From: Methyloversatilis discipulorum
GTDB taxonomy: Bacteria > Pseudomonadota > Gammaproteobacteria > Burkholderiales > Rhodocyclaceae
DNA length: 64,000 bases
Reading direction: 5' to 3'
Assembly (NCBI RefSeq): GCF_018780585.1
Contig: NZ_JADMJL010000025.1
Location: 1 to 64,000 of the forward strand
Each line of letters opens with the position of its first letter. Position 1 is the first letter of the stretch. A model generated the notes under the pieces. It did no database searches and had not been told where the DNA came from. It saw only the letters and a program-made list of their open reading frames with translations. The translations under genes and the position numbers were made by a program. Of this stretch, positions 26,976 through 54,952 are shown one piece after another.

Positions 26976-27013
26976 ACCTCAGGTAAGAACCTCGGGCTCG
27001 GACCTGAGGTTCA
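26973..27013. terminator. Bidirectional hairpin shared by two convergent stop codons
   Basis: Perfect 12-bp inverted repeat TGAACCTCAGGT / ACCTGAGGTTCA (26973-26984 and 27002-27013) with a 17-nt loop. The outer bases are the TGA stops of the two convergent genes. No T-run follows, so it is a weak or Rho-assisted terminator candidate rather than a classical one. Confidence 0.55.
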
Positions 27014-27949
27014 GACCAGTACGGCGCGATTGCGTCCGGCCTCCTTGGCCGCATAGAGACGCTCGTCAGCGGTGCGGAACACGTGCATCAGTTCGTCGGC
27101 GGCGGCATCGATGAAGGCGCCGCCGACCGACGTCGTCACCACGCCCCAGTCGGCGTTGCGCTCGTGCGGAATGGCCAGTCCGCGCACTTCGGCGATCACC
27201 GTTTCGGCGATGCGCTCATAGACCGGCTTGCTGGCCACCGGCATCAGCACGGCGAATTCCTCGCCGCCGTAGCGGGCGGCGAAAGCGCCTTCGGTCAGGC
27301 GTTCGGCGTTGAAGCGCTCGACCACACCCGACAGGGCCTGAGCGACCGCGCGCAGGCAGTCGTCACCGGCCAGATGGCCGTAGTGGTCGTTGTATTTCTT
27401 GAAATGGTCGATGTCGAGCATCAGCAGCGCAAACGGCCGGCCGCTCTCGCGCGCCTCGCTCCACGCCAGATCCAGGGTGAGGTCCATGTGCCGGCGGTTG
27501 CTCAGGCCGGTAAGTCCGTCGCGACTGGCCTGTTCCTTCAGCAGCCGGTTGGCGACCGACAGCCGCTTGCGCAGCGCGGCGATGCGGGTCATCGCCTTCA
27601 TCTTCGCCTGCAGCACCGCTTCCGGCACCGACTTGACGATGAAGTCGTCGCCGCCGGCCTCGATCGCGGTGATCAGGTTTTCCTGCGTGTCGGAGGCGGT
27701 GAGGAAGAGGATGGGCGTCCATGCCCAGTCCTGCGTCGCCTCGATCGCACGGATGCGCGCAGTCGCCTCGAAGCCGTTCATCACCGGCATCTCGATATCC
27801 ATCAGGATGAGGTCGGGTGCGAGCTGCGCGAACTGCGCCACCGCGGCCTCGCCGTGCTCGGCCACCGTCACGTCGTAGCCGAACGACGCGAGCCGCACCG
27901 ACATGACAGCCGCCATGGCGCGACTGTCCTCAACCAGCAATATCTTCAT
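27011..27949 (-). CDS. Response regulator with GGDEF diguanylate cyclase domain
   Basis: 312 residues. A receiver domain with acceptor D51 (LILMDIEMPVMNG), the conserved Thr in LFLTASDT and Lys in VKSVPE is joined by a short helix to a GGDEF domain. The active-site loop reads GGEEF (about residue 229) and DGLTGLSNRRHMD, LDIDHFKKYND are intact, so it should make cyclic di-GMP when phosphorylated. No I-site RxxD is obvious directly upstream of GGEEF. It lies 69 bp downstream of etfA on the same strand; a hybrid kinase could be its partner but none is adjacent. Confidence 0.93.
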   Translation of the reverse strand: MKILLVEDSRAMAAVMSVRLASFGYDVTVAEHGEAAVAQFAQLAPDLILMDIEMPVMNGFEATARIRAIEATQDWAWTPILFLTASDTQENLITAIEAGGDDFIVKSVPEAVLQAKMKAMTRIAALRKRLSVANRLLKEQASRDGLTGLSNRRHMDLTLDLAWSEARESGRPFALLMLDIDHFKKYNDHYGHLAGDDCLRAVAQALSGVVERFNAERLTEGAFAARYGGEEFAVLMPVASKPVYERIAETVIAEVRGLAIPHERNADWGVVTTSVGGAFIDAAADELMHVFRTADERLYAAKEAGRNRAVLV

Positions 27950-28017: not shown

Positions 28018-28989
28018 TTAGGAGGAAAAATTACCCTCGCCGCACCCGGCCAGCGCCTGTGTCAGCGCCGGTACGGCCTCGAAGATGTCCGCCACCAGCC
28101 CATAGTCGGCGATGCCGAAGATGGGCGCGTCGGCATCCCGGTTGATGGCGACGATGACGCGTGAATCCTTCATGCCGGCCACGTGCTGGATGGCGCCGGA
28201 AATGCCCACCGCGATGTACAGCTCGGGCGCGACGACGCGGCCGGTCTGGCCGACCTGGCTGTCGTTGCCGACGAAGCCGGCATCGACCGCGGCGCGGCTG
28301 GCGCCGAGGGCGGCGTTCAAGGTATCGGCCAGCGGTTCGAGCAGGCGGCGGAAGTTGTCGGCGCTGCCCAAAGCACGACCGCCCGACACCACGACGCGCG
28401 CGCTGCCCAGATCCGGGCGCCCGCCCTGCACGCGCTGGCGCGCCACCAGGCGCGAGCAGGCCGGATCGGCGGCGGCGGCCAGCGGCAGCACCGGGCAGTC
28501 GCCGCCGGTTGGCGCCGCGGCAAACGCGGTCGCGCGCACGGTGAGCATCTTCAGCGCATCGAGCGACTGTACGGTGGCCAGCACATTGCCGGCGTAGATC
28601 GGGCGCACGAAGGTCTCGGGCGATTCGATGCGCACGACGTCGGTGACCGGCGCCACGCCCAGCCGCGCCGCCACCCGCGGCAGCAGGTTGCGGGCAAAGC
28701 CGCCGGCCGCCGCAACCACGTGCGTGTAGTGATCCGCCGTACCGGCCAGCACCGAGCGCAGCAGTTCGGTCAGCGGCTCGGCCAGCTGATCGGCGTAGTG
28801 CGCGGCGTCGGCGTGCAGCACGCGGGCGACACCGGCGATCCGGCGCGCCTGTCCGGCCACGACGGCGCAGTCATGACCGGCCACCAGCAGATCGATCTCG
28901 CCACCGAACTGCAGCGCCGCCGTCACGGCGTGCAGCGTGACCGGGTGCAGCACGGCGTTGTCGTGCTCGGCAATCACCAGGGTTTTCAT
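28018..28989 (-). CDS. etfA: Electron transfer flavoprotein alpha subunit
   Basis: 323 residues. The C-terminal FAD domain shows [30 protein letters not shown] and [19 protein letters not shown], the ETF-alpha signature. The ETF dimer carries electrons from flavin dehydrogenases to ETF-quinone oxidoreductase. It is the last gene of the leftward block that includes an ABC transporter, ferredoxins and an AprA-like flavoprotein. The reversed order etfB-etfA is usual. Confidence 0.94.
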
Positions 28990-29000
28990 CGCATCTCTCC

Positions 29001-29750
29001 TCAGATCACCTGCGCCTCGGCGCGCAGGCGTTCCATCAGCTGGGCCACGCTGTCGACGCGCACGCCCGGTGTGCGCGCCGGCGGCGGCGCCATGTGCAGC
29101 GTGCGCAGGCGTGGCGCGACATCGACGCCCAGCGATTCGGGCGTCACGCTGTCGACCGGCTTCTTCTTCGCCTTCATCAGATTGGGCAGCGACACGAAGC
29201 GCGGCTCGTTCAGGCGCAGGTCGGTGGTGAGTACCGCAGGCAGCGTCAGCGCCAGCACTTCGCTGCCACCGTCGATCTCGCGCGTCACTTCGATGTGGCC
29301 GTCACCGGGCCGCAGCTTCGACGCGTTGGTCGCCTGCGGCCAGTCGAGCAGCGCGGCCAGCATCTGGCCGGTCTGCCCTGCGTCGTCGTCGATCGCCTGC
29401 TTGCCGCAGATCACCAGTTGCGGCTGCTCGCGCTGGCACAGCGCGTGCAGCAGGCGGGCCACGGCCAGCGGTTGAAGTTCGGCCGCGGTATCGACCAGCA
29501 CGGCGCGGTCCGCCCCCATCGCGAGCGCGCTGCGCAGCGTGTCCTGACAAGCGGCGACGCCGCAGGACACGACCACCACCTCGCTGGCGACGCCGGCCTC
29601 CTTCAGCCGCACCGCCTCTTCCACCGCGATCTCGTCGAACGGGTTCATCGCCCGCTTGGCGCTGCCGATGTCGACATCGCTGCCGTCGGCCAGCACACGC
29701 ACCTTCACGTTGTGATCGACCACCCGCTTCACCGCCACCAGCACCTTCAT
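29001..29750 (-). CDS. etfB: Electron transfer flavoprotein beta subunit
   Basis: 249 residues. MKVLVAVKRVVDHNVKVRV, AMNPFDEIAVEEA, GKQAIDDDAGQTGQM and LPAVLTTDLRLNEPRFVSLP are family marks, including the AMP-binding region. Its ATG overlaps the stop of the DUF971 gene (ATGA), so it is translationally coupled to the transporter part of the block. This tie makes a dedicated ETF for this pathway more likely than the general fatty-acid ETF. Confidence 0.94.
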   Translation of the reverse strand: MKVLVAVKRVVDHNVKVRVLADGSDVDIGSAKRAMNPFDEIAVEEAVRLKEAGVASEVVVVSCGVAACQDTLRSALAMGADRAVLVDTAAELQPLAVARLLHALCQREQPQLVICGKQAIDDDAGQTGQMLAALLDWPQATNASKLRPGDGHIEVTREIDGGSEVLALTLPAVLTTDLRLNEPRFVSLPNLMKAKKKPVDSVTPESLGVDVAPRLRTLHMAPPPARTPGVRVDSVAQLMERLRAEAQVI

Positions 29751-30043
29751 GACACGCCCTCCTCCAGCTCGCGCAGATAGGCCCACGGATAGATGCCGCG
29801 CCGGTGGCCGTCGGAGAACACGAGGTTCAGGCCGGCGTCCGCCATCGCGTGCGCCTCGGTCAGCACGACGCCGCTGCAATCCGGCGCCGCGACGCCGGCG
29901 CGCGCCGCCTTCGTGCAGAAGGCGCAGCGGCAGCGGGCGCGCAGCAGCGCGTGCGGCAATGCGCTCTCGCTGCCGTCGTCCCATTCGATGCGCAGCAGAC
30001 GCGAGGCGCTGTGCACGGTGACCGACCGCGGCAGCGCATTCAC
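29747..30043 (-). CDS. DUF971 (GBBH-like N-terminal) protein
   Basis: 98 residues with a GTG start that overlaps the stop of the ABC ATPase gene (GTGA). The domain has RIEWDDGSESALPHALLR, the cysteine motif RCRCAFC and IYPWAYLRELE near the end. The same fold forms the N-terminus of gamma-butyrobetaine dioxygenase and the C-terminus of the Fe-S carrier HCF101. A role in metal or Fe-S handling fits neighbours rich in Fe-S clusters, but is inference. Confidence 0.85.
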   Translation of the reverse strand: MNALPRSVTVHSASRLLRIEWDDGSESALPHALLRARCRCAFCTKAARAGVAAPDCSGVVLTEAHAMADAGLNLVFSDGHRRGIYPWAYLRELEEGVS

Positions 30044-30918
30044 AGCATCGCTCCCACGCCTTCGGCGCCGACGTGCCAGTCGTGCCCGGCCAGTCCGCCC
30101 TCCTTCAGTTCTCCACCCATGGCGGCGAGGCTCTCTTCGCGGATGAGCGCCTTCAGCTGGCGGTGCAGCGCGAGGAAAGTGGGCGACGAGGTCATGTCGG
30201 GCGTGCGCGGGCGCGGCAGCGGCACCGGGATTTCCGCCTTGATGCGGCCGGGGCGCGCGGTCATCACGTAAATCTTGTCGGACAGGAAGATGGCTTCCTC
30301 GATGTCGTGCGTGATGAACAGCACCGACAGCTGCAGCTGCTGCCACATATTGGTCAGGATTTCCTGCATCACCACGCGCGTCTGCGAATCGAGCGCACCG
30401 AAGGGCTCATCCATCAGCATCACCTGCGGGCTGGTGGCCAGCGCGCGGACGATGCCGACGCGCTGCTTCATGCCGCCGGAGAGCTGGTCCGGATAGTGGT
30501 TCTCGAAGGACAGCAGGCCGGCCAGGCCGAGCAGCGTGCGCGCCTTCACTTCGCGCGTGCTGCGGCTCACGCCCTGCATCTTCAGGCCGAACTCGACGTT
30601 CTGCCGCACGCTGAGCCAGGGGAACAGCGAGTACTGCTGGAACACAACGCCGCGGTCGGCACCCGGCGCGGTCACGGCACGGCCATCGACCGTGACCGTG
30701 CCTTCGTCGGCGCGCAGGAAGCCGGCCACGATGTTCAGCAGCGTGGACTTGCCGCAGCCGGACGGTCCGACGATGGACACGAATTCGCCCGGCTTCACGT
30801 CCAGTGACACGTTCTTCACCGCGTCGAAGGGCACGCCGTTCTGCGTGAAGCGGATGTTCACGTCGCGGATGTCGATGTGGCCGGTGGCCGATCGGGTCTG
30901 TACGGTCGATGCATTCAT
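30040..30918 (-). CDS. ABC transporter ATPase, nitrate/sulfonate/taurine type
   Basis: 292 residues. Walker A GPSGCGKST (51-59), Q loop VVFQQYSLFPW, signature LSGGMKQR, Walker B VMLMDEPFGALD and the switch His in FITHDIEE are intact. FQQYSLFPWLSV and the overall length fit the NrtD/SsuB/TauB group. The ATG at 30918 overlaps the permease stop (ATGA). The C-terminus is about 30 residues longer than typical for SsuB. Confidence 0.93.
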   Translation of the reverse strand: MNASTVQTRSATGHIDIRDVNIRFTQNGVPFDAVKNVSLDVKPGEFVSIVGPSGCGKSTLLNIVAGFLRADEGTVTVDGRAVTAPGADRGVVFQQYSLFPWLSVRQNVEFGLKMQGVSRSTREVKARTLLGLAGLLSFENHYPDQLSGGMKQRVGIVRALATSPQVMLMDEPFGALDSQTRVVMQEILTNMWQQLQLSVLFITHDIEEAIFLSDKIYVMTARPGRIKAEIPVPLPRPRTPDMTSSPTFLALHRQLKALIREESLAAMGGELKEGGLAGHDWHVGAEGVGAML

Positions 30919-31883
30919 CGCGAGTTCTCCTTTCCACTGCTCGCCTGCCACGGCATCAGCAGCCGGCCGAGCAGGCGGATGCCACCGCTGCATACGAGGC
31001 CGAGCACGCCGATCACCAGCATGCCGATGACGATGTTCGAGTACTCGATCAGCGAGTACGCCTCCCAGGTGAAGTAGCCGACGCCGTACTGACCGGAAAT
31101 CATTTCCGCGGCAATCAGCGACACCCAGGCCACGCCCATGCCCACCGCCAGGCCGGTGAAGATGTGCGGCATCGCGCCGCGCAGCACCACCTGGGTCATC
31201 AGTGCGAACTCGGTGGCACCGAGACAGCGCGCCGCCCGCACCAGCACTGCATCCATCGACGCCACGCCGTGCATGGTGTTGAGCAGGATGGGGAAGAAGG
31301 CACCGATGAAGGTGATGAACACGATGCTCGTTTCGGTGGTCGGCCACAGCATGATGGAGATCGGCACCCAGGCGATGGCCGGGATCGGGCGCACGATTTC
31401 CATCGCCGGGAACAGCAGGCTGCGCACCCGGCGGTAACGCCCGATCAGCAGCCCCAGCGTCACACCGAGCACGGTGGCGATGGCGAAGCCCAGCATGATG
31501 CGGCGCAAGCTCAACATCACGTGCGTCGCGAAGCCCTTGTTGCCGAACAGGTTCATCGCATCGCCGAACACCTCGACCGGACCGGGCACGTTGGTGAAGC
31601 GGATGTAGAACACCCAGCGATAGGTGGTGGCCAGGTGCCAGAAACCGATCAGCAGCACGATGGACAGGGCACTCAGCGCCCAGGTAGGCAGTTCGCGGCG
31701 CAGCGTGCGCCCCAGCCGCTGCGCCGGCGTCAGCCGGAGCGGTGCGGCGGTGGCCGGGGCGGCGGGCGCCCCGCCGGGCACCGCGACCGGCGCCACCGCG
31801 CGCACCGGCGCGGGTGCGTCGGCCGGCGCGGCATCCGGCGGGGCGGCGTCATCGATCGAGTGCATCCTCATGACGGTCGACAT
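30915..31883 (-). CDS. ABC transporter permease, nitrate/sulfonate/taurine type
   Basis: 322 residues. An Ala/Pro-rich N-terminal tail (about 1-60, unusual in length) is followed by five or six membrane spans and the ATPase-contact loop in LVRAARCLGATEFALMTQVVLRGAMPHIF. SIMLWPTTETSIVF and GVAWVSLIAAEMISG fit the SsuC/TauC group. It starts 3 bp after the binding-protein gene. Confidence 0.92.
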   Translation of the reverse strand: MSTVMRMHSIDDAAPPDAAPADAPAPVRAVAPVAVPGGAPAAPATAAPLRLTPAQRLGRTLRRELPTWALSALSIVLLIGFWHLATTYRWVFYIRFTNVPGPVEVFGDAMNLFGNKGFATHVMLSLRRIMLGFAIATVLGVTLGLLIGRYRRVRSLLFPAMEIVRPIPAIAWVPISIMLWPTTETSIVFITFIGAFFPILLNTMHGVASMDAVLVRAARCLGATEFALMTQVVLRGAMPHIFTGLAVGMGVAWVSLIAAEMISGQYGVGYFTWEAYSLIEYSNIVIGMLVIGVLGLVCSGGIRLLGRLLMPWQASSGKENSR

Positions 31884-31886
31884 GGC

Positions 31887-33329
31887 TCATTTCCTCACGG
31901 TGGCGACGGCGAGTGCGTCGGCATAGCTGCCGAGCTTTCCGCCATGGGCGGCGGCGTGCGCCTCGGCGTCCTTCTTCAGCAGGAAGGGCGTGATGGCCGC
32001 ACCGCCCTTGCCGCCCAGCGAATAGAAGGCCTTGTCGGCGAACAGCTTGATCTTGAAGCTCTGGTCGAACACGAAGGCCACGCCCACCTTCTTGCCCGCC
32101 TTGGTCGCCGCATTGACCGCCGCCAGCGTGCATTCGGCCGACTTGTAAGCAGTCAGCGCGCCGCCTTCGATCCACACCTCGCCGGCCTCGCGCCGCTTGT
32201 CGATGCTGCCGCCGCACAGCGGGTCGGTGCCCGAGATTTCGTAACTCACGAAGCTCGCCTTCTGCTTGGCGTAGTCCAGCCCCAGTTCCTTGTAGGCCTG
32301 CATCAGGTAGGACTCGTCCACCCAGGCGTCGGCGTCGAATTCCTTCACCCGGCCCATGCGCTGCAGCACGCCGTGGTCGTACTTCACCGTCTCGACCCAC
32401 TTCGGCTTGATGGTCGGGTCCAGCGTATGCACGCCGCCCGGGCCGAGGAACATGTAGGCCACTTCCTTCTCGACCCGCGTCCATTCCTCGATCTTGGTGG
32501 CCGCCTCGACCGGGTTCTTGCGCACCCACTCGTTCGCCTCCATCAGCGCCTTGATGTAAGCGACGACGAACTCCGGATATTTCTTCGCGAAGTCCTCGCG
32601 CACGACGACGCCGTGGAAGGTGGGCACCTTGGTTTCGACGCCGTCGAAAATCTTGCGTGCGAAACCGCGGTAGGGCAGCAGCTCGGCGAAGGGCACGAAA
32701 TCGGCGTGACCGTCGATGCGCTTCTCCTGCAGGCTGGAAGTGCCGACTTCCGGGCTCTGGCTCGACAGTTCCCAGACATCGCTCTTCCAGCCCTTGTCCT
32801 CCATCGCCTTCAGCAGCATGCCGTGCGCGGCCGAGCCGAAGGGCACCGACACCTTCTTGCCCTTCAGGTCGGACAGCTGGTAATAGGGCGAATCCTTGTG
32901 CACCACGATGCCGTTGCCGGCGCCGTCGGCGTTGTAGGCAATCAGTGCGATCAGCCGGCTTTTCGTTTCCGGGCTGGCCTGGAAGGTGGCGCCATTCACC
33001 AGCAGCGGGTAGTCGCCCATCATGCCGATCTGCAGCGTGTTGGCCACCATGCCGTTGGTCACCGGCGGGCCGGAGGTGAAGTTCTGCCATTCGAACTTGA
33101 ACTGGATGTCCTTGTACTTGCCGGTCTTCGGCAGGTGCTTTTCGAGCAGGCCCAGTTCCTTGATGACGATGCCGCCGGTCACCGTGTTGGTGGTGGTGTT
33201 CTGCGTGCCGATGCCGACGGTGACGACCTCGGCCAGTGCGCCGGTGGCACAGCAACCCAGGGCTGCGCCGAGCAGCAGTGCGCGGGTCGTGCCGGTTACG
33301 CGACCCAGGGTCTTCTTCATAACGTTCAT
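31887..33329 (-). CDS. ABC substrate-binding protein, sulfonate/nitrate-like
   Basis: 480 residues, longer than SsuA or TauA (about 320) and closer in length to NrtA-like proteins. A signal peptide (about 1-33, ending ATGALA) precedes a type II periplasmic fold with VGIGTQNTTTNTV, LQIGMMGDYPLL, VPFGSAAHGMLL and FHGVVVREDFAKKYPE. Four Cys are present in the mature part or near it (for example SGTDPLCGGSI and SAECTLA). The ligand is not predictable from sequence; the neighbours suggest an oxidised sulfur compound. Confidence 0.88.
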   Translation of the reverse strand: MNVMKKTLGRVTGTTRALLLGAALGCCATGALAEVVTVGIGTQNTTTNTVTGGIVIKELGLLEKHLPKTGKYKDIQFKFEWQNFTSGPPVTNGMVANTLQIGMMGDYPLLVNGATFQASPETKSRLIALIAYNADGAGNGIVVHKDSPYYQLSDLKGKKVSVPFGSAAHGMLLKAMEDKGWKSDVWELSSQSPEVGTSSLQEKRIDGHADFVPFAELLPYRGFARKIFDGVETKVPTFHGVVVREDFAKKYPEFVVAYIKALMEANEWVRKNPVEAATKIEEWTRVEKEVAYMFLGPGGVHTLDPTIKPKWVETVKYDHGVLQRMGRVKEFDADAWVDESYLMQAYKELGLDYAKQKASFVSYEISGTDPLCGGSIDKRREAGEVWIEGGALTAYKSAECTLAAVNAATKAGKKVGVAFVFDQSFKIKLFADKAFYSLGGKGGAAITPFLLKKDAEAHAAAHGGKLGSYADALAVATVRK

Positions 33330-33404
33330 GGCTTCACCTCTTCCTGTCAGTTCAATGAATGAATCGAAGATTTGCTGCGTGCTTGCTGTATGGGTGGCCG
33401 GCGC

Positions 33405-33734
33405 TCAGGCGCTCTCGAACAGGTAGTGCCTCTTGTCCTTCACGTTGGCCCACTCGTCCGCATCGGGCAGCGGATCGCGGGCTGCGGTGATCAGCGGCCA
33501 TTCGGTGGCGAGTCGGGCATTGATGGCGATGAACTCGACCTGGTCGGCCGGCAGGTCCTCCTCGGCGAAGATGGCCTCGGCCGGGCACTCCGGTACGCAG
33601 ACGCCGCAGTCGATGCAGGCCGCCGGATCGATGACCAGAAACTCCGGCCCCTCGTGGAAGCACTCGACCGGACAGACCGACACGCAGTCGGTGTACTTGC
33701 AGCGCACGCAGGCTTCGGTGACGACGAAGGTCAT
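33405..33734 (-). CDS. fdxA: FdxA-type 7Fe ferredoxin
   Basis: 109 residues. Cys pattern C9-x2-C12-x4-C17-x3-C21P and C40-x2-C43-x2-C46-x3-C50P binds a [3Fe-4S]/[4Fe-4S] pair as in Azotobacter-type FdxA, with the usual C-terminal [11 protein letters not shown]...W extension. It carries low-potential electrons. It is the second ferredoxin of the block, separated from the AprB-like one by the HEAT protein gene. Confidence 0.9.
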
Positions 33735-33744
33735 GGTGTTCTCC

Positions 33745-34692
33745 CTATTTCTGGGCCAGCGAAATGGCGGTCAGCGCGAGACGGGACAGCTTGCGCACGT
33801 CCGGGTCGGCGTCGTCGAGCGCCTTCTCCAGCGCCGGGATGGCGCGCGGGTCGGCCAGTTCGCCCAGCGCGATGGCCGCTTCCTTGCGCAGATTGCCGAT
33901 CGGGTGGGCCAGCGCTTCGACCAGCGCCGGCAGGGCTGCAGCCGCCTTCAGCAGACCCAGGCTGCGCGCCGCCTTGACGCGCACCTGCCAGTACTCGTCC
34001 TGCATCGCGCGTATCAGGTCGGGCACCGCCAGCGCGAGCCGCAGCTTGCCCAGCGTCTGCGCCGCCTCGTCGCGCACCATCCAGGCGACGTCGGTCAGCG
34101 CGCGGGTCAGTGACGGCAGCACGCTCACCTCGCTCGAATAGCCAATGGCGCCGATGGCGATGCGCCGCACTTCCGGGTCCGGGTCGCGGGCGGCGATCTC
34201 GGCCAGCGCGCCGACCGCTTCCGCCTTGCGCAGATAGCCGAGCACGCCCACCGCCTCGCGCCGCACGGCGGCGTCGCCGTCCTTCAGCGCCTCCATTGCC
34301 GGCGCGAAAGCGGCATCGACGCGCAGCGCGCGTACCGCGCGCAACGCCAGCATGCGCACTTCGGCCGTGTGGCCGCTGAGGAAGGGAATCAGCGGCGCGG
34401 CGGAGGCGCTTTCCTTCAGTTCCGACAGCACTTCGCCGGCGGCTGCCCGCACCGCCGCGTCGGCGTCGAGCAGCATCGGCGCCAGCGCCTCGACCACCTC
34501 GGCGTCCTCGTAGCCTTCGAGCGCGCGCACCGCCTCGGTCCGCACGGTGGCGTCGGCGTCCTTCAGCCGCGGCAGCAGCAGCGGCACGATGTCGTCCTCG
34601 TCGCCGTAGGGCAGGTCGATCACCGCCAGCCGGCGCACTTCGGCGTCGGGGCTGGTGAGCCGCTCGACAATGGAACAGGTCAGGGTATCCAT
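33745..34692 (-). CDS. HEAT/PBS-lyase repeat protein
   Basis: 315 residues built almost wholly of about nine to ten helical repeats of roughly 31 residues (units such as [55 protein letters not shown]). No catalytic motif and no signal peptide are seen. Such solenoids act as scaffolds, or as lyases/chaperones for cofactor attachment. Its place between two ferredoxin genes, 10 bp from the next, suggests an assembly or docking factor for the redox complex. Confidence 0.88.
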
Positions 34693-34702
34693 CGTCGGCT
34701 CC

Positions 34703-34936
34703 TCAGCGCAGCAGGTAGGGAATCGACACGCTGACCGCGCCGGTCGGGCAATCGGTTTCGCAGGGCAGGCAGTACCAGCACTCGTCGAACTTCATGAAAG
34801 CCTTCTTGGTCAGCATGTCGATGGCCAGCACGTCGAGCGGGCACACATCGACGCATACGGTGCAGCCCTTCTCGGCGATGCATTTGTCGTTATCGACACT
34901 CACCGGCACCTGGGTCGGCGTAGCAGCTATGGTCAT
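34703..34936 (-). CDS. AprB-like 2[4Fe-4S] ferredoxin
   Basis: 77 residues. Cys pattern C19-x5-C25-x2-C28-x3-C32P and C53-x2-C56-x2-C59-x3-C63P. The second motif, FDECWYCLPCETDCPTGAV, resembles the CWECYSC motif of the adenylylsulfate reductase beta subunit AprB, although the C-terminal tail of true AprB is missing. It directly follows the AprA-like flavoprotein, as aprB-aprA pairs do (order reversed here). The ATG at 34936 is chosen over an upstream start that has no domain support. Confidence 0.85.
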   Translation of the reverse strand: MTIAATPTQVPVSVDNDKCIAEKGCTVCVDVCPLDVLAIDMLTKKAFMKFDECWYCLPCETDCPTGAVSVSIPYLLR

Positions 34937-34967
34937 GGCGAACTCCTTGATGGATGTGTCGGTGGAA

Positions 34968-36698
34968 TCAGGCGGCTTCGGCGTTGCGGGCGACGCGCAG
35001 GCGCTGGTAGGCACTGCGCTCTTCGTCATCGATCGGCACGATGTAGGGCTCGATCGCCTTCTTGCGCATCTGCATGCGGCCGTCCTCGCCCTTGCTCAGC
35101 AGCGTGTGGCAGAACCAGTTCTCGTCGTCGCGCTCCGGGTGATCGACGAAGTAGTGGTAGAGACCCCAGCGGCTCTCGGTGCGGAACAGCGAGGCGCGCG
35201 CGGCCATCTCGGCGCAGTCGAGGATGGAGTGCGCTTCCATCGCACGCATCAGTTCGTGCGGGTTGGCGGCGAACATGGCCGAGGTGTCCTCGCGGATTTC
35301 GTCGAAGCGGCGCAGCGCGATCTCGTACTTGCGGGTGATCTTGGGCGGCTGCAGGTAGTCGTTCACCAGGCGGCGCGTCTTGTATTCGATCTGGAAGGGT
35401 GTGAGGCCGTCGGTGCGACCGAGCGGCGCCAGGATGCGCGCCTCCTCCGCCGCGACGTCGCCAGCGCTGACCGCGCCCAGGCCGTGCTCGGCGCAGTAGG
35501 CGGCAGCGTTCTCGCCACACAGCCGGCCATAGACGAAGGCGCCCAGCATGTAGTTGTGCGGCACGCTGGCGCAGTCGCCGGCGGCGTAAAGCCCGGGCAC
35601 CGAAGTCGCGCCACGCGCGTCGGTGTGGATGCCGGACGCGCTGTGGCCGCTGCAGAAGCCGATTTCCGAGATGTGCATCTCGACCATCTGCTTGCGGTAG
35701 TCGTTGCCGCGCTTTTCGTGGAAGCGGCCGCGGCTCGGACGTTCGTTGGTGTGCAGGATGTGCTCGATTTCGCTGATGGTTTCTTCGGCGAGGTGGTCGA
35801 GCTTGAGGAACACCGGGCCGTTGCCGCCTTCGAGTTCGAAGTAGAACTCCATCATCATCTGGCCGCTCCAGTAGTCGCACTCGATGAAGCGTTCGCCCTT
35901 GGAGTTGGCGGTGAAGCCGCCGAACGGGCCGGTCACGTAGGCACAGGCCGGGCCGTTGTAGTCCTTGATCAGCGGATTGATCTGGAAGCACTCGAGATTG
36001 GCCAGGTCGGCCCCGGCGTGATAGGCCATCGCGTGGCCGTCACCGCAGTTGGTCGGGTTCTCGTAGGTGCCCATCAGGTAGCCGGAGGCCGGCAGACCGA
36101 TGCGGCCGGCCGCGCCGGTGCTGAGCACCGCCGCCTTGGTGCGGATGACATAGACGTCGGCGGTACGGCAGTCGAAACCCATCACCGCGACCACTTCGCC
36201 GCTTTCGCCGGTCAGCACGCGGGTGACGACCACACGGTTGGTCACCTCGACGCGTGCCTTCTTCAACTGGCGGTAGAGGATCTTCTTCATGTGGTGACCT
36301 TCGGGCATCGGCAGCACGTAACTGCCCAGGTGATGCACCTTGCGCACCGCGTAGTCGCCGGTTTCGTCCTTCTCGAACTTGACGCCCCAGCGGTCCAGCT
36401 CGTTGATCATGTCGAAGCTGTTGGCGGCGTAGGCCATCACCGCTTCCTGGTCGACGATGCCGTCGTTGGCGATGGTGATTTCCTTGACGTACTGCTCCGG
36501 CGTCGCGTGCCCGGGGATGACGGCGTTGTTGAGCCCGTCCATGCCCATCGAGATGGCGCCCGAGCGCTTCACGTTGGCCTTGTCGATCAGCAGCACGCGC
36601 AGCTTGGGGTTCTTCTCCTTGGCCTTGACGGCGGCCATCGGGCCGCCGGTACCACCGCCGATGACGACGAGGTCGAATTCCATGTCGATGCGTTTCAT
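34968..36698 (-). CDS. AprA/fumarate-reductase-family flavoprotein
   Basis: 576 residues. FAD is bound by LVVIGGGTGGPMAAVKAKEK at the N-terminus, KAAVLSTGAAGRIGL in the middle and VPGLYAAGDCASVPHNYMLGAF near residue 390. A capping domain and a C-terminal helical domain with RMQMRKKAIEPYI follow. It is shorter than dissimilatory AprA (about 620-660). With its ferredoxin partner it probably forms a two-subunit oxidoreductase. AGGAGAG lies close before the ATG at 36698. The substrate may be sulfite/APS or another oxidised sulfur compound; this is not provable here. Confidence 0.82.
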   Translation of the reverse strand: MKRIDMEFDLVVIGGGTGGPMAAVKAKEKNPKLRVLLIDKANVKRSGAISMGMDGLNNAVIPGHATPEQYVKEITIANDGIVDQEAVMAYAANSFDMINELDRWGVKFEKDETGDYAVRKVHHLGSYVLPMPEGHHMKKILYRQLKKARVEVTNRVVVTRVLTGESGEVVAVMGFDCRTADVYVIRTKAAVLSTGAAGRIGLPASGYLMGTYENPTNCGDGHAMAYHAGADLANLECFQINPLIKDYNGPACAYVTGPFGGFTANSKGERFIECDYWSGQMMMEFYFELEGGNGPVFLKLDHLAEETISEIEHILHTNERPSRGRFHEKRGNDYRKQMVEMHISEIGFCSGHSASGIHTDARGATSVPGLYAAGDCASVPHNYMLGAFVYGRLCGENAAAYCAEHGLGAVSAGDVAAEEARILAPLGRTDGLTPFQIEYKTRRLVNDYLQPPKITRKYEIALRRFDEIREDTSAMFAANPHELMRAMEAHSILDCAEMAARASLFRTESRWGLYHYFVDHPERDDENWFCHTLLSKGEDGRMQMRKKAIEPYIVPIDDEERSAYQRLRVARNAEAA

Positions 36699-36783
36699 GT
36701 TCTCTCCTTGATTTGGGGCTGCACTGTCGCGCCAGGGCGCGCCGTTGCGAACGAAGAATTCCTGCGTACTTTCCAGCGGTGGA

Positions 36784-37563
36784 TCAACTTCGGTCTATGC
36801 GCAGGCGGTACTGGAAGGCATCGCCGCGGTAGTAGAGGAATTCGAAATCGATGGGCCGGTCGTCAGCCCAGGTCAGGCGCTCGATGCGCAGCAGCGGCGA
36901 GGCCTCGGCGATGTCGAGATGACGGGCCAGCGACTCGTCGGCCGAGATCGCCTCGATCTGCACGTCGGCGTGCGTGAGGTTGCGGCCGAGGTCGTTTTCG
37001 AGAATGACGAAGATGTCGCGCGTGGCCAGGTCTTCCTGCGTCAGCCGCTCGCCGATGTCCGGCGGGAAGTAGCTCACGTCGACCGAGATGGGTTCGCGGT
37101 TCAGGTAACGCAGGCGCTGTATCTCGAACACCGGCGCCTCGGGCTTCAGCTGCAGCCGCTGCGCCACCACGGCACTGGCGGCGACCGGCTTCGCGCTGAG
37201 CAGCAGCGAGTAGGTTTCGTAGCCGGAGGTGGACATCGCCTCGCCGAAACCCTGCAGCCGCGACAGGCTCTGGAAGGCCTTGGGCTTGGCAACGAAGCTG
37301 CCCTTGCCCATCACCTTGAAGATGAGCCCCTCCTTCTGCAGGTCGCCCAGTGCCTGCCGTATCGTGATGCGGCTGACATCGAATGCCGACATCATCTGGC
37401 TTTCCGACGGCATCTGCGAATGCGGCGGGTAACTGCCGTCGAGAATGCGCCGGCGCAGGATTTCGCGGATCTGCGTGTACAGCGGCATCTGCGATACCGG
37501 CGACAGCGCGTCCTCGACCTCCGCCGCGCCCGGGGGCGCGATCTGCTTGCGGTGGGGTGCCAT
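36784..37563 (-). CDS. GntR-family (HutC/UTRA) transcription regulator
   Basis: 259 residues. A winged helix (about 28-95) with MPLYTQIREILRRRI, PSESQMMSAFDVSRITIRQAL and GKGSFV is followed by a UTRA ligand-binding domain (about 115-255). AGGAG is 7 bp before the ATG at 37563; longer in-frame starts would run through the operator. It probably controls the block below it and the TauE gene above it, since matching palindromes stand before both. Most HutC members are repressors released by a pathway metabolite. Confidence 0.92.
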   Translation of the reverse strand: MAPHRKQIAPPGAAEVEDALSPVSQMPLYTQIREILRRRILDGSYPPHSQMPSESQMMSAFDVSRITIRQALGDLQKEGLIFKVMGKGSFVAKPKAFQSLSRLQGFGEAMSTSGYETYSLLLSAKPVAASAVVAQRLQLKPEAPVFEIQRLRYLNREPISVDVSYFPPDIGERLTQEDLATRDIFVILENDLGRNLTHADVQIEAISADESLARHLDIAEASPLLRIERLTWADDRPIDFEFLYYRGDAFQYRLRIDRS

Positions 37564-37584
37564 GTTCGAGCTCCTGTTCAAGAA

Positions 37585-37598
37585 CCTGTTATGACGGG
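37585..37598. promoter_or_regulatory. Candidate GntR operator, copy 1 (before regulator gene)
   Basis: CCTGTTATGACGGG is a one-mismatch palindrome, 22 bp upstream of the GntR start codon, and lies inside a 31-bp stretch (37583-37613) that recurs before the TauE gene. The position suits autoregulation. Confidence 0.6.
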
Positions 37599-37690
37599 TC
37601 ATGTCATGCAAAGTCAGTGCCAATTTTTTCGCTCCGCACAACATGTTCAGAAATCGTTGATTTGACTGCGGTTTACGACGACCAACCGCT

Positions 37691-38521
37691 TCAGCACCGG
37701 CTGTCGGACGCACCGCATTGCTGCACCGCGACAGTGCCCTGCACCAGTGCGACCGCATGCACGGGCCAAGTTGCGAGCGCGCCGGTCGCCATCAGCAGGC
37801 ACAGCACGACGCGACGGAAATGACGCGGGTCCAGCCACCGGTAGAGCCGCTCGCCGAGCAGCCCGCCGCCGTGAAAAAGCGGCGCCAGCAAAAGCCCCTG
37901 CAGCAGCAGCGACAGGCCGAACATGCCCGACAGCACGATGGCGATCAGCGCCAGCGGGTAAAGACATCCGAAATAGACGAGGAAGCTCGCGCGCGCCCGG
38001 TGACTGTCGGTTTCGACGCCCAACAGATAGAGGATGGCCGGCGGTCCGCCGACACCGCCGAAGCCGGTCAGCACGCCGCTGAACAGACCCGCAGAGATCG
38101 AGCCCGCCTGACTGCGACCACGCACCAGACGGGCGCCGGTCAGCAGCACCGCCGCACTGGCGATCACCGCGACGCCGATCACCTGGCCGAACAGTCGTGC
38201 CGGCAGCACGCTCACCAGCCACAGCCCGAATGGAATGCCGGCGCAGGCGGCGCCCAGCATCGGCAGCAGCACCCGGTGATCGACCAGCCGGCGCACCGAA
38301 GGCGCCAGTGCGTGCGTCAGCGGCAGTGCGTTCAGCAGCGTCACGATGCACAGCGTGTCGCGCGCCGACGCCACCGTAGAGAGCAGCGGCGCCATCAGCA
38401 GCGCGGCGCCGAAGCCGGTCATGCCGCGCAGCACGCCGCCGGCGATCACCGCGCCGGCAATCACCGACCAGCTCGCGAGCGAGCGGTCCGGCCACAGCGT
38501 GTTCAGCAGCGAAGCATCCAA
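37691..38521 (-). CDS. TauE/SafE-family anion exporter
   Basis: 276 residues with about eight membrane spans. The duplicated family motif is visible as GVLRGMTGFGAALLMAPLLS and GVLTGFGGVGGPPAILYLL. Members export sulfite, sulfoacetate or related anions. I choose the TTG at 38521: GGGGAG stands just before it, and the longer ATG at 38584 would overlap the palindromic operator. It precedes the GntR gene on the same strand with 127 bp between. Confidence 0.85.
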   Translation of the reverse strand: MDASLLNTLWPDRSLASWSVIAGAVIAGGVLRGMTGFGAALLMAPLLSTVASARDTLCIVTLLNALPLTHALAPSVRRLVDHRVLLPMLGAACAGIPFGLWLVSVLPARLFGQVIGVAVIASAAVLLTGARLVRGRSQAGSISAGLFSGVLTGFGGVGGPPAILYLLGVETDSHRARASFLVYFGCLYPLALIAIVLSGMFGLSLLLQGLLLAPLFHGGGLLGERLYRWLDPRHFRRVVLCLLMATGALATWPVHAVALVQGTVAVQQCGASDSRC

Positions 38522-38576
38522 TCGGTTCTCCCCGGCGGGACGGACCACCTGCGAATTCGGCAGCGTCCGCGTCCAA

Positions 38577-38590
38577 CCTGTCATAACAGG
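38577..38590. promoter_or_regulatory. Candidate GntR operator, copy 2 (before TauE gene)
   Basis: CCTGTCATAACAGG is a perfect palindrome, 56 bp upstream of the preferred TTG start of the TauE/SafE gene. The extended 32-bp context (38575-38606) matches copy 1 at about 26 positions, including the flanking GGTCATGTC and GCAAA. Confidence 0.65.
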
Positions 38591-38749
38591 TCATGTCGAG
38601 CAAAAGCCGGACCAGTTCGCGCACACGCCACGCGCCGGTCGTCAAACCCTTTGCCGTCGCGGCTTCGGTCAGTGCGTGGCGGTTCATGTGCAGCACCACG
38701 ACAGCCCGGCACGGTGCGCCGGCCTCGGCGACGCCCTGCTTGCGTGCGT

Positions 38750-39760
38750 TCATGCCAGTGCTCCGAGGCTGACCAGGCCGAAGCCGGCAAGCAGCAGCCA
38801 CAGCCACAGCAGCGCGGCCAGTGCCCACACGCGCCAGCCGGCATGCGCCATGTCGGCCAGCCGCGTGTTGGCACCGAGCGCCGCCAGACCGACCGCGAGC
38901 AGCGCCTGCGCGGCTTCCGCTCCGGCGGCCTGCAGCCACAGCGGCAACAGCCCCGACGCGTTGAGCGCCATCATCACGACAAAGCCATACAGGAAGAGCG
39001 GCACGCCCGGGCTGCGCAGCGACGTGGCGCCCGGCGCGCGCAGCCCGGCGGCGATCAGCATCACCACCGGCGCCAGCAGCATCACGCGCATCATCTTCTC
39101 GACCAGCGCGCTGGCCGCCGCCTCAGGTCCGGCCGCGGCAGCGCCGGCGACGACATGGCCCAGTTCGTGTACCGAGAGGCCGACCCAGAGGCCGAATGAC
39201 GCGTCGTCCAAACCGCTGAGCGGTCGCAGCAGCGGCAGCAGATACATGCCCAGCGTGCCGAACACGACCACCGCCAGCACCGCCGCCGACACATGGCGTG
39301 CGCGGGCGCCGATCACGCTGTCGGCCGCGGCCACCGCCGCCGCACCGCAGATCGCGCTGCCGCAGCCGATCAGCACCGCCGCCTGGGTGTCGAGACCGAG
39401 CCGGCGGCCCAGCGCCAGCGCCAGCGCCAGCGTGCTGAGCACGATGACCAGCGCCATCGCCAGCCCGCTCCAGCCCACGCTGCCCAGTTCGTCGATGCCG
39501 ATGCGCAGACCGTACAGCGCGATGCCGGCGCGCATCAGCGTGCCGCGCGCCAGCCGGAATCCATCCGCGCCGCGCGTCGGCAGCGCCGGCCACAGATTGC
39601 CGACCACGATGCCCAGCGCCACCGCCAGCGGCAGCCAGCCAAAACCGTGCGCCGACACGCCCGGCACGGCCGACAGCGCCGCCGCGGCAGCCGCAACGGC
39701 CACCGACGCGACAAGACCGGTCGGCAGGCTGGAAGCAGTGAGGGCGGTGGTCGAATTCAT
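38750..39760 (-). CDS. yeiH: YeiH-family (UPF0324) putative sulfate/sulfite exporter
   Basis: 336 residues with about ten membrane spans. ARGTLMRAGIALYGLRI, IGCGSAICGAAAVAA and LSVHELGHVVAGA are family marks. YeiH proteins are annotated as putative sulfate exporters and are often paired with the LysR regulator YeiE, which in enterobacteria responds to sulfite. Here a LysR gene is divergent, 99 bp away. Start at 39760 gives a normal N-terminal helix. Transport substrate is inferred from family and context. Confidence 0.88.
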   Translation of the reverse strand: MNSTTALTASSLPTGLVASVAVAAAAAALSAVPGVSAHGFGWLPLAVALGIVVGNLWPALPTRGADGFRLARGTLMRAGIALYGLRIGIDELGSVGWSGLAMALVIVLSTLALALALGRRLGLDTQAAVLIGCGSAICGAAAVAAADSVIGARARHVSAAVLAVVVFGTLGMYLLPLLRPLSGLDDASFGLWVGLSVHELGHVVAGAAAAGPEAAASALVEKMMRVMLLAPVVMLIAAGLRAPGATSLRSPGVPLFLYGFVVMMALNASGLLPLWLQAAGAEAAQALLAVGLAALGANTRLADMAHAGWRVWALAALLWLWLLLAGFGLVSLGALA

Positions 39761-39842
39761 GGATGCGTCGCGGCTGCAGGAAAGTGAGTGCAGCGTAAGC
39801 GGCGCGCCATTCATTCTTCTATATCATGCAAATCACTGATCG

Positions 39843-39859: not shown

Positions 39860-40765
39860 ATGAACCTGCATCTTCTGCGCATCTACGTGAAGGTCGTCGA
39901 AGTCCAGAGCTTTTCGCGTGCCGCGGAGGCGCTGGACATCACTCAGCCTGCCGTCTCGAAAGCGGTGCGCGAACTCGAATCCCAGCTCGAAACGGTGCTG
40001 CTGGACCGTCGCGGCAAGACCTTCCGGCCGAGCGAATCCGGTCGGGCGCTCTATGAGTACGGGCGCAGCATCCTGGCGCTCGAACGCGAGGCGACCGAAA
40101 CCATCCGCGCCTACAGTTCGCTCGAACGCGGGCGTCTGACCGTGGGTGCGAGCACCACCATTGCGACCTACTGGCTGCCGCCCTTCCTGGTCGATTTCCA
40201 CGCCCGCCATCCGCACGTCGAGCTGCAGGTGATCAGCGGCAACACGCGGCAGATCGCCGATCTGCTGCTCGATTGCCGGGTCGATGTGGCGCTGGTCGAG
40301 GGCGAGGTCGACGACGCGCGACTGAATCGCCGCATCTGGCGACGCGACGAAATGGTCATCATCGCGCCGCGCGACGCCGATCTGCCGACCGGCGGCGTGC
40401 TGCGGCCGGCCGATCTGGTCGACCACAGCTGGATCGTGCGCGAACGCGGCTCCGGCAGTCGTGCCGCCACCGACCGCGTACTCGACGAGATGGGCCTGAC
40501 GCCGGCGCGCACCATCGAGGTGGGCAGCAACGAAGCCATCGTGCAGACGGTGGCCGCCGGCCGCGGTCTGGGCATGGTGCCGCGCATCTGCGCGCGCGAC
40601 CAGCTGGCGCTCGGCCGCATCCGCCGGCTGCATCCGGGCGGTGCCGCGATCCAGCGCACGCTCTACCGCATCCGCCTGCCCGAGCGCCCGATCAGCCCCG
40701 CCGCCCTCGCCTTCGAAGCGCTGATCGCTGACTCACACACGGCCACGGACGCGGCCGTCGAGTGA
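39860..40765 (+). CDS. LysR-family regulator (YeiE/CysB-like)
   Basis: 301 residues. N-terminal winged helix MNLHLLRIYVKVVEVQSFSRAAEALDITQ (about 1-60) and a periplasmic-binding-like effector domain (about 90-295, RLTVGASTTIATYWLPPFL). The TIATYWLPPFL start of the effector domain is typical of the CysB/Cbl/CbbR-YeiE branch. Divergence from yeiH and the palindrome at its start codon suggest it controls yeiH. The effector could be sulfite or another sulfur compound. Confidence 0.88.
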   Translation: MNLHLLRIYVKVVEVQSFSRAAEALDITQPAVSKAVRELESQLETVLLDRRGKTFRPSESGRALYEYGRSILALEREATETIRAYSSLERGRLTVGASTTIATYWLPPFLVDFHARHPHVELQVISGNTRQIADLLLDCRVDVALVEGEVDDARLNRRIWRRDEMVIIAPRDADLPTGGVLRPADLVDHSWIVRERGSGSRAATDRVLDEMGLTPARTIEVGSNEAIVQTVAAGRGLGMVPRICARDQLALGRIRRLHPGGAAIQRTLYRIRLPERPISPAALAFEALIADSHTATDAAVE

Positions 40766-54540: not shown

Positions 54541-54546
54541 CAAATC

Positions 54547-54563
54547 TTGGAGCGGGAAACGAG
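54547..54563. repeat. ICE attachment site (attR): 17-bp copy of tRNA-Gly 3' end
   Basis: TTGGAGCGGGAAACGAG is identical to 54299-54315, the 3' end of tRNA-Gly(GCC) plus one base. No tRNA body follows; instead mobile-element genes begin. The 3' end of tRNA-Gly is the attB site of ICEclc-type elements. The orientation predicts an intact tRNA-Gly and a tyrosine integrase at the far right end of the element, outside the window. Confidence 0.82.
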
Positions 54564-54952
54564 TCATGCACTAGAGCGCTAAGTCTCTGTTTCCCAATCA
54601 CTTTCTCCACTGTGGTGATCAGCGAAGAACTCAATTATAGCCTTGTTTTTCGCCCTCGGCAACAAAGTTCATCCAACCACTTCCACCAGCGTCCAAGGAT
54701 GATCCATCCACCCGTCGTTACGCCTGATGCGTCCAGCTGCTGAGCGGGTTCGCTATCGAACTCCAACTTGCGACGATCATGACTTGCGCTCGCTCCGCAG
54801 GCAGCGCGGGGTGGTGTCGCGTGGACTACCTGGCACCTGGACGGCTGTAGGACACAACCGCCGGCATCGGAACACCGCAAGTACTCATCTTTACATCGCT
54901 GCGGCTAACTTCGCCGGAGCGCAACGCGGCGCCAGTGTAGTGGCAGCCAGCC
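54564..54952. other. ICE terminal region without a supported gene
   Basis: About 390 bp, less GC-rich than the chromosome to the left. Short open frames occur but none looks coding. It is the extreme end of the element and could hold integrase or excisionase binding sites; I see no clear repeat array. Confidence 0.4.

Follow-up and report, generated by a model that had tools for sequence, protein, structure and literature searches.

An AprAB-like flavoprotein operon with a sulfonate-class importer in Methyloversatilis discipulorum, a candidate for reductive sulfite release

The known ways of liberating sulfite from sulfonates rely on oxygenases, on thiamine- or pyridoxal phosphate (PLP)-type and other lyases, and on glycyl radicals. 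We analysed a stretch of 64,000 nucleotides from Methyloversatilis discipulorum (assembly GCF_018780585.1, contig NZ_JADMJL010000025.1, positions 1 to 64,000; hereafter the window) that carries a twelve-gene operon encoding an AprA-like flavoprotein, an AprB-like ferredoxin and an ATP-binding cassette (ABC) importer related to sulfonate transporters. We tentatively propose, with a probability of about 0.42, that this operon imports an X-SO3 compound and frees sulfite from it by reduction. Among solved structures, the flavoprotein is closest to the alpha subunit of Methanothermococcus thermolithotrophicus 3′-phosphoadenosine 5′-phosphosulfate (PAPS) reductase (8a8o; 5e-54, or 5.8e-75 with a profile), which is the best match and is covered over nearly the whole chain, and to Archaeoglobus AprA. 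The methanogen enzyme consists of an FAD subunit and a two-cluster ferredoxin with an electron-transfer tryptophan, as described in PMC10322725, where its AprA-type Q145 and ferredoxin Trp42 are also stated. Like this enzyme, the operon enzyme is proposed to release sulfite reductively from an X-SO3 donor. Unlike the methanogen protein, however, the operon flavoprotein has its adenosine loop replaced and carries leucine at the position of AprA R265, where 8a8o retains arginine. The operon also adds a HEAT-repeat protein and an importer, and a sulfate-activating gene is absent among the twelve.

All twelve frames are open, closely spaced and located on the minus strand between positions 28018 and 38521, with 4-bp start/stop overlaps at EtfB/DUF971 (29747-29750), DUF971/ATPase (30040-30043) and ATPase/permease (30915-30918). 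The transcription order is tauE, gntR, AprA-like flavoprotein, AprB-like ferredoxin, HEAT, fdxA, solute-binding protein (SBP), permease, ATPase, DUF971, etfB and etfA. This one-strand block with its three overlaps had been recognized in an initial annotation made from the sequence, and the family assignments given there agree with our Pfam and NCBIfam profile matches; it did not include the YeiH-family gene that lies just upstream with a LysR gene divergent from it, nor the two operator copies, the NosL-like stretch of the solute-binding protein and the second operon copy described below. The host genome (4.56 Mb, 81 contigs, 99.98% complete) holds a second, shorter copy of the operon on contig C13.

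The flavoprotein (34968-36698, minus strand) belongs to the NF006131/PRK08275 family, as evident by its score of 1058.2 bits against a curated cut-off of 587. It misses the AprA model TIGR02061 (159.3 bits, cut-off 641.75) and remains under the cut-offs for PRK06854 (278 of 557) and sdhA/frdA (172 of 567), and its Pfam domains are FAD_binding_2 and Succ_DH_flav_C. A tree of 42 rows places the 25 family members in a single group (95/91), which is joined to 12 true AprA proteins (95/87). Outside both lie two AprA-like proteins (L023, L024) and three more distant superfamily members; the latter three were labelled by hand and not via a family search. The branching order is uncertain because the tool warned of long branches meeting. 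True AprA is not found in the host genome, and exceeds its cut-off in 32 of 150 relatives.

We take the active-site set of AprA to be N74, R265, H398 and W234, with E141, Q145 and F448 contacting adenosine 5′-phosphosulfate (APS); our residue numbers were counted off structure-match alignments and agree with this set. In an alignment of 39 rows that includes 25 family members and 12 AprA proteins, N74, K267, D268 and H398 are identical in every member of both groups. These four residues are shared with dissimilatory AprAB, which forms a neighbouring clade. In contrast, R265 is changed to leucine, W234 to tyrosine and F448 to tyrosine in 25 of 25 family members, whereas the original residues are found in 12 of 12 AprA proteins. 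The adenosine loop with E141 and Q145 is replaced in the aligned family members by a longer, near-invariant stretch (KVHH..G.YVLPMPEGH in window-type proteins, QVHR in Pseudanabaena). The dicarboxylate site of SdhA, made up of H242, R286, H354 and R399, fares no better: in the alignment with 1nek, R399 and R286 fall inside unaligned SdhA insertions and have no counterpart, H242 is an asparagine, and H354 is kept as H342.

The loss of R265, W234, the adenosine loop and the dicarboxylate arginines suggests that the flavoprotein is probably neither an APS reductase nor a fumarate reductase, with the fold and part of the AprA site remaining. APS reductase activity is not supported by the score (159 vs 642 bits) or by the active-site columns. 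Fumarate reductase, the name used in databases, is supported by neither tree nor active site. The AprA and AprB kinship that the same annotation had proposed is upheld by profiles, solved relatives and the tree, and it survives the comparison with the dicarboxylate site.

The AprB-like 2x[4Fe-4S] ferredoxin (34703-34936, minus strand; CWYC motif) has Desulfovibrio gigas AprB (3gyx_B, 4.7e-9) as its second-best solved match and misses the AprB model TIGR02060 (35.5 bits, cut-off 135.65). A CWxC motif, as in AprAB, is present in 115 of 115 matched copies, and 99 end with PYLLR. Unlike AprB, for which the two solved chains have 150 and 166 amino acids, this protein has only 77. The HEAT-repeat protein (33745-34692, minus strand; PF13646) matches the C-terminal part (positions 608-896) of NF010374 (PRK13800), a family of fused flavoprotein-HEAT proteins. 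Such a fusion of 893 amino acids is encoded on a Tsukamurella plasmid, where it scores 1568 bits on NF010374 (cut-off 1196), is over the NF006131 cut-off too, and is flanked by GntR, ferredoxin and ABC genes of the window kind. This fusion argues that the HEAT protein is a physical partner of the flavoprotein. NF006131 and NF010374 both bear the name fumarate reductase/succinate dehydrogenase, and the dicarboxylate site that this name implies does not appear in our alignment; PRK13800 is named in PMC8401276. The DUF971 protein (29747-30043, minus strand; PF06155, 73 bits) has a CxCxxC motif that recurs in 83 of 88 matched copies. A role for it in Fe-S maturation is suggested by the Mrp/NBP35 gene that follows HEAT, instead of DUF971, in all three cyanobacterial regions seen.

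The importer may point to the substrate class. For the SBP (31887-33329, minus strand; NMT1/SsuA-type), the closest solved structures are TauA (1.4e-23), SsuA (4e-17) and a second SsuA (8e-16), with nitrate-transport-named chains ranking lower. This ranking bears out the sulfonate-class importer predicted by the initial annotation. However, the SBP is a relative and not a member of the TauA and SsuA families because it scores under both cut-offs (TauA, 73.0 of 304.25 bits; SsuA_fam, 121.1 of 163.5 bits). The permease (30915-31883, minus strand) resembles NtrB, TauC, SaoP and SsuC and the ATPase (30040-30918, minus strand) resembles SaoA, TauB and NtrCD, each under the cut-offs (for the ATPase, among the best 25 of 186 models). 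Thus, the three proteins are in the same class as TauABC and SsuABC but are unlike them in missing the curated cut-offs and in the NosL-like stretch that follows the TauA/SsuA-like part of the SBP. This C-terminal stretch of ~117 amino acids is matched with an E value of 5e-4 alone and 0.017 in the whole protein, under the Pfam cut-off.

Importers of the window kind were also observed in other settings. In genome G024 (L192, 6841-17159), one is located near an arylsulfatase gene, a formylglycine-generating-enzyme-like gene, DUF202-like genes and an extra gyrB, and a like gene set including the extra gyrB occurs on the Gordonia amicalis plasmid pCP113 (L270, 1578-13340), such that two phyla are represented. 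In genome G051 (L150, 6870-10860), the flavoprotein and ferredoxin genes are separated by a sulfotransferase gene (PF13469) together with a second ABC set of the sulfonate class.

To place these features in context, 80 loci were fetched by similarity to the flavoprotein alone, representing the best 80 of at least 578 confirmed; some are duplicates or near relatives, such that the counts are not independent, and gene calls at several loci and regions come from simple home-made callers. The initial annotation had suggested a search for conserved gene order, and the set recurs more often than chance would give: the small ferredoxin is present in 80 of 80 loci, HEAT in 79 (missing from L136) and GntR in 77 (missing from L104, L116 and L125). 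DUF971 is found in 65 loci, FdxA in 24, ferredoxin-NADP reductase (FNR) in 11, a fused GltD-like/FNR-like protein in 10 and EtfB in 3. An SBP-like gene is present in 66 loci, 62 of them with a frame of at least 430 amino acids and four with only a shorter, different SBP. These 62 are open frames at the match with starts set by script, and L082 is doubtful because it overlaps a permease match. Three layouts were distinguished, namely the window order (A), the importer before HEAT (B) and the importer not nearby (C). The question of whether the core set travels with unrelated transporters received a mixed answer, in that the SBP accompanies it in 22 of 22 relatives and 62 of 80 loci, but four loci have a different SBP and 14 have none.

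Of the 150 relatives, 22 have the flavoprotein over cut-off and each of these also has the SBP, which is found in just one of the remaining 128 (23 genomes in all); the corresponding p of about 2e-25 would require independent genomes, a condition that does not hold. Across the phylum, the SBP is present in 20 of 398 sampled genomes. The flavoprotein, ferredoxin and HEAT, along with an importer of the TauA/SsuA-like type, span three phyla (Pseudomonadota, Cyanobacteriota, Actinomycetota), and the family was encountered in Pseudomonas, the Burkholderia group, Ralstonia, rhizobia, thiobacilli, cyanobacteria and Tsukamurella. In Pseudanabaena, as in the majority of the alphaproteobacterial plasmid regions inspected, a Crp/Fnr-type gene takes the place of GntR, and a Methylocystis region has neither. 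One operon copy (L146) lies amid seemingly ordinary chromosomal genes on CAKLQF020000010.1 (144 kb), named "Acinetobacter phage MD-2021a", which may be bacterial sequence filed as phage.

The GntR-family regulator (36784-37563, minus strand; PF00392 and PF07702, the latter the UTRA domain) is accompanied by two 16-bp palindromes that are putative operators, ACCTGTTATGACAGGT (minus strand, 38576-38591) upstream of tauE and ACCTGTTATGACGGGT (37584-37599) between tauE and gntR. No such palindrome was obtained from 100 shuffles (mean 0.00). Sites with no more than four mismatches to ACCTGTTATGACAGGT precede gntR in 79 of 94 loci and are absent from the other 15; shuffled upstream regions average ~6.3 mismatches, with a best of 3 to 5 (50 shuffles). 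The operator pattern yields 27 occurrences in 15 of the 150 relatives against four for a control pattern, and one occurrence each in 41 of 150 Burkholderiaceae genomes against one for the control. When Burkholderiaceae operator loci were returned, gntR and the flavoprotein gene adjoined the site in 27 of 30 (the exceptions being L214, L221 and L223). In 369 genomes of the wider class, the pattern is at background, with matches in 11 genomes including the host and control matches in 16. The operator marks the operon across species, and its tracking of the operon together with its fall to background in the wider class suggests that GntR acts locally as a regulator dedicated to this system.

In a single case, genome G007, one site lies ~300 bp upstream of a gene for a TauD-like protein (279 bits, cut-off 313), with an SsuA gene over cut-off next in line; this arrangement ties the regulator to sulfonates. 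Neither flavoprotein nor SBP is over the thresholds in this genome. At L191 (4902-8492) in G007, the gntR frame has only 113 amino acids, the flavoprotein gene is missing and, judged by eye, a transposase-like frame lies ~2.2 kb on; this locus resembles a degenerate operon copy in which the operators have been retained.

Two putative exporter genes lie within or just upstream of the operon. The first gene of the operon encodes a TauE/SafE protein (37691-38521, minus strand, TTG start; PF01925, 87 bits, gathering cut-off 32.6) that has no NCBIfam match. Upstream lies a YeiH-family putative sulfate exporter (38750-39814, minus strand), which meets PF03601 (234.5 bits vs 24.5) and misses TIGR00698 (202.5 bits vs 232.6). 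The divergent, YeiE-like LysR gene (39860-40765, plus strand) misses NF040786 (219.6 of 250) and the YeiE model NF040889 (187.2 of 480), and a pattern search found no operator copy before the YeiH gene. TauE and YeiH occur together with the module in the window, in Azoarcus (L060 and L063), in genome G071 (L155), and in Pseudanabaena and Leptolyngbya, hence in two phyla and in two of the three cyanobacterial regions seen. The divergent LysR-YeiH pair recurs at L060, L063, L065, L154 and L155. TauE, along with the neighbouring YeiH, suggests sulfite or sulfate as the product, and the sulfite-type export foreseen by the initial annotation appears sound at the level of these families.

Other sulfur genes are also found near the operon. 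All eight SsuD-model matches in the host genome, one of them over cut-off, are on the 118.5-kb contig C13 with the second operon copy; the window copy is on a different contig. Of 104 operon loci, 28 have extra sulfur-acquisition genes no more than 10 kb away, compared with 1 of 20 control regions, a weak difference (p 0.02-0.05). The queries came partly from the tested loci, and without these source loci the figures are 23 of 98 vs 1 of 20 (one-sided p 0.049). Examples include Sinorhizobium chiapasense (ssuD, sulfate and sulfonate ABC genes, TauD), Nostoc (sulfonate SBPs, metX, O-acetylhomoserine sulfhydrylase, YeeE) and Cupriavidus (an FMN monooxygenase, an acyl-CoA dehydrogenase-type gene and an SsuA-class ABC set). 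Extra sulfur genes were not seen near the Bradyrhizobium ISRA436 and Paraburkholderia sprentiae loci. A sulfonate ABC operon of Paraburkholderia phymatum is reported in a nodule study (PMC8305402). We set aside the end of plasmid pBPHY01 of this species (40 kb, L269), which carries sulfonate-class ABC genes and an LLM gene and lacks a flavoprotein of the NF006131 family.

The redox partner varies among loci while the catalytic set is constant. Partners include FdxA (in the window at 33405-33734, minus strand; NF045490, 159.9 bits, cut-off 135) together with FNR, the fused GltD/FNR-like protein that we call Nfn-like on the basis of model matches, a Fer4_5 protein that is membrane-bound in appearance by eye (L152, L153), and electron transfer flavoprotein (ETF). 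In the window, ETF is encoded by the last two genes, for EtfB (29001-29750, minus strand; PF01012) and EtfA (28018-28989, minus strand; PF01012 and PF00766). The initial annotation treated ETF as a characteristic component, which the count of three EtfB loci in 80 contradicts, and all three (L060, L068 and L070) carry FNR too. ETF is therefore best seen as one of several exchangeable partners. Because FNR and the Nfn-like protein fit the delivery of electrons, delivery is favoured, and where that annotation had left open whether the substrate is oxidised or reduced, our data lean towards a reductive direction.

From these observations, the following mechanism can be put forward. A sulfonate-like X-SO3- would enter via the TauA/SsuA-type ABC transporter. 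Low-potential electrons would be supplied by an exchangeable donor, here ETF and/or FdxA and elsewhere FNR, the Nfn-like protein or the Fer4_5 protein, and would pass through the AprB-like ferredoxin to the FAD of the AprA-like subunit. By analogy with the proposal for APS and PAPS reductases, the sulfonate sulfur would be attacked at FAD N5 and sulfite freed. The HEAT protein would serve as a structural partner of the enzyme complex, and DUF971 would probably serve Fe-S maturation. The sulfite would then be assimilated, or exported by TauE (and YeiH), and GntR would act as a repressor until the substrate is present.

Several observations weigh against reductive sulfite release. The importer parts score under the taurine and sulfonate cut-offs, and 14 of the 80 loci have no importer nearby (although the contig of L066 spans no more than 3.8 kb). 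Few of the same loci have exporters (YeiH 9/80, TauE 2/80), and the Nostoc region lists neither near its module copy. The operon is carried by Thiobacillus, Halothiobacillus and Acidithiobacillus, which are organisms unlikely to lack sulfur, and CysI over cut-off was not found in the host genome. With R265, W234 and the adenosine loop replaced, AprA chemistry is not to be assumed. Furthermore, carbon leaves less readily than AMP; cleavage would be easier with S-sulfonates or sulfamates than with carbon sulfonates. Finally, the window EtfB is closest to the ETF of Paracoccus (1efp_B, 9.6e-83; CarD, 6fah_B, 9.4e-26), and this classical type usually takes up electrons, although the window ETF could carry electrons in either direction.

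This last point is also the starting place for an oxidative version of the pathway, which we judge unlikely while regarding it as the foremost competitor. Here, a sulfinate or a sulfite-yielding import would be oxidised, with electrons passing to ETF/quinone or NADP and the anion exported by TauE/YeiH. The presence of the operon in thiobacilli and of exporter genes in the window is consistent with this scheme, and PMC10504309 describes AprAB running oxidatively in sulfur oxidisers. However, EtfB is present in only three loci, always with FNR, and the FdxA-FNR and Nfn-like partners are better suited to electron delivery.

Next in rank, and also improbable, is a substrate without sulfur, wherein an NMT1-type importer would take up an organic acid or an oxyanion of another kind, which the flavoprotein would reduce as a member of the fumarate reductase superfamily. 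The class of binding proteins does also handle nitrate, bicarbonate and vitamin precursors, nitrate-transport-named chains do appear in the same structure search, and the flavoprotein active site fits neither known class. Nevertheless, TauA and SsuA rank above the nitrate chains, and the SsuD contig, the TauD-linked operator, the sulfur neighbours and TauE/YeiH all speak for sulfur.

Detoxification of a sulfated or metal-containing compound seems quite improbable. The comparison is with the Sec-assisted organometallic (SAO) selenoprotein system, described in PMC13188914, whose ABC importer is of a related class. Among ATPase models SaoA scores highest (271.1 bits, cut-off 360), and among permease models SaoP ranks third (136.8 of 295), but these scores, like that of SaoX (23.7 of 300), are under the cut-offs, with the Sao scores near those of TauB and NtrCD. 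Likewise, none of the models listed for the operon proteins corresponds to the SAO selenoproteins or lyase, nor to SaoL, SaoT or SaoC. The arylsulfatase and extra gyrB by the importer in G024 and Gordonia would suit detoxification, as would the NosL-like stretch of the SBP if it bound metal; its two cysteines are present in window-type SBPs but absent in type B proteins, and metal binding is not supported. Lastly, an ordinary fumarate reductase/succinate dehydrogenase flavoprotein in a chance neighbourhood, as the NCBIfam description of NF006131 and the two Pfam domains would have it, is highly implausible given the tree, the lost R399, R286 and H242 equivalents, and the conserved AprB-like ferredoxin and gene set.

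If sulfite is indeed released reductively by the operon enzyme, bacteria would possess a new way of freeing sulfur from organic matter, and a ferredoxin-driven flavin/Fe-S route would make sulfonate sulfur usable without oxygen. It is a rather doubtful, though attractive, extension that the AprAB-type flavin/Fe-S complex constitutes a new oxygen-independent class of desulfonating enzymes acting by reductive X-SO3 cleavage on imported organosulfonates in three phyla, which would have gone unnoticed because its members are annotated as fumarate reductase. The name of a widespread family would then be corrected, and a third specificity would stand alongside APS/PAPS reductase and fumarate reductase. 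The system is open to direct tests, in that the proteins concerned are few, small and soluble, the operator is defined and the binding protein is dedicated to it. No paper on the operon was found in the open-access literature, a search that leaves subscription papers mostly outside. PMC13352529, which concerns dimethyl sulfide, was rejected because 'apra' there means apramycin.

Two further features of the window were observed. A gene for a response regulator-GGDEF-like protein (27011-27949, minus strand) directly follows etfA on the same strand. An sX8 small RNA (54546-54627, minus strand; Rfam RF02227, 95.8 bits) adjoins genes for tRNA-Cys and tRNA-Gly.

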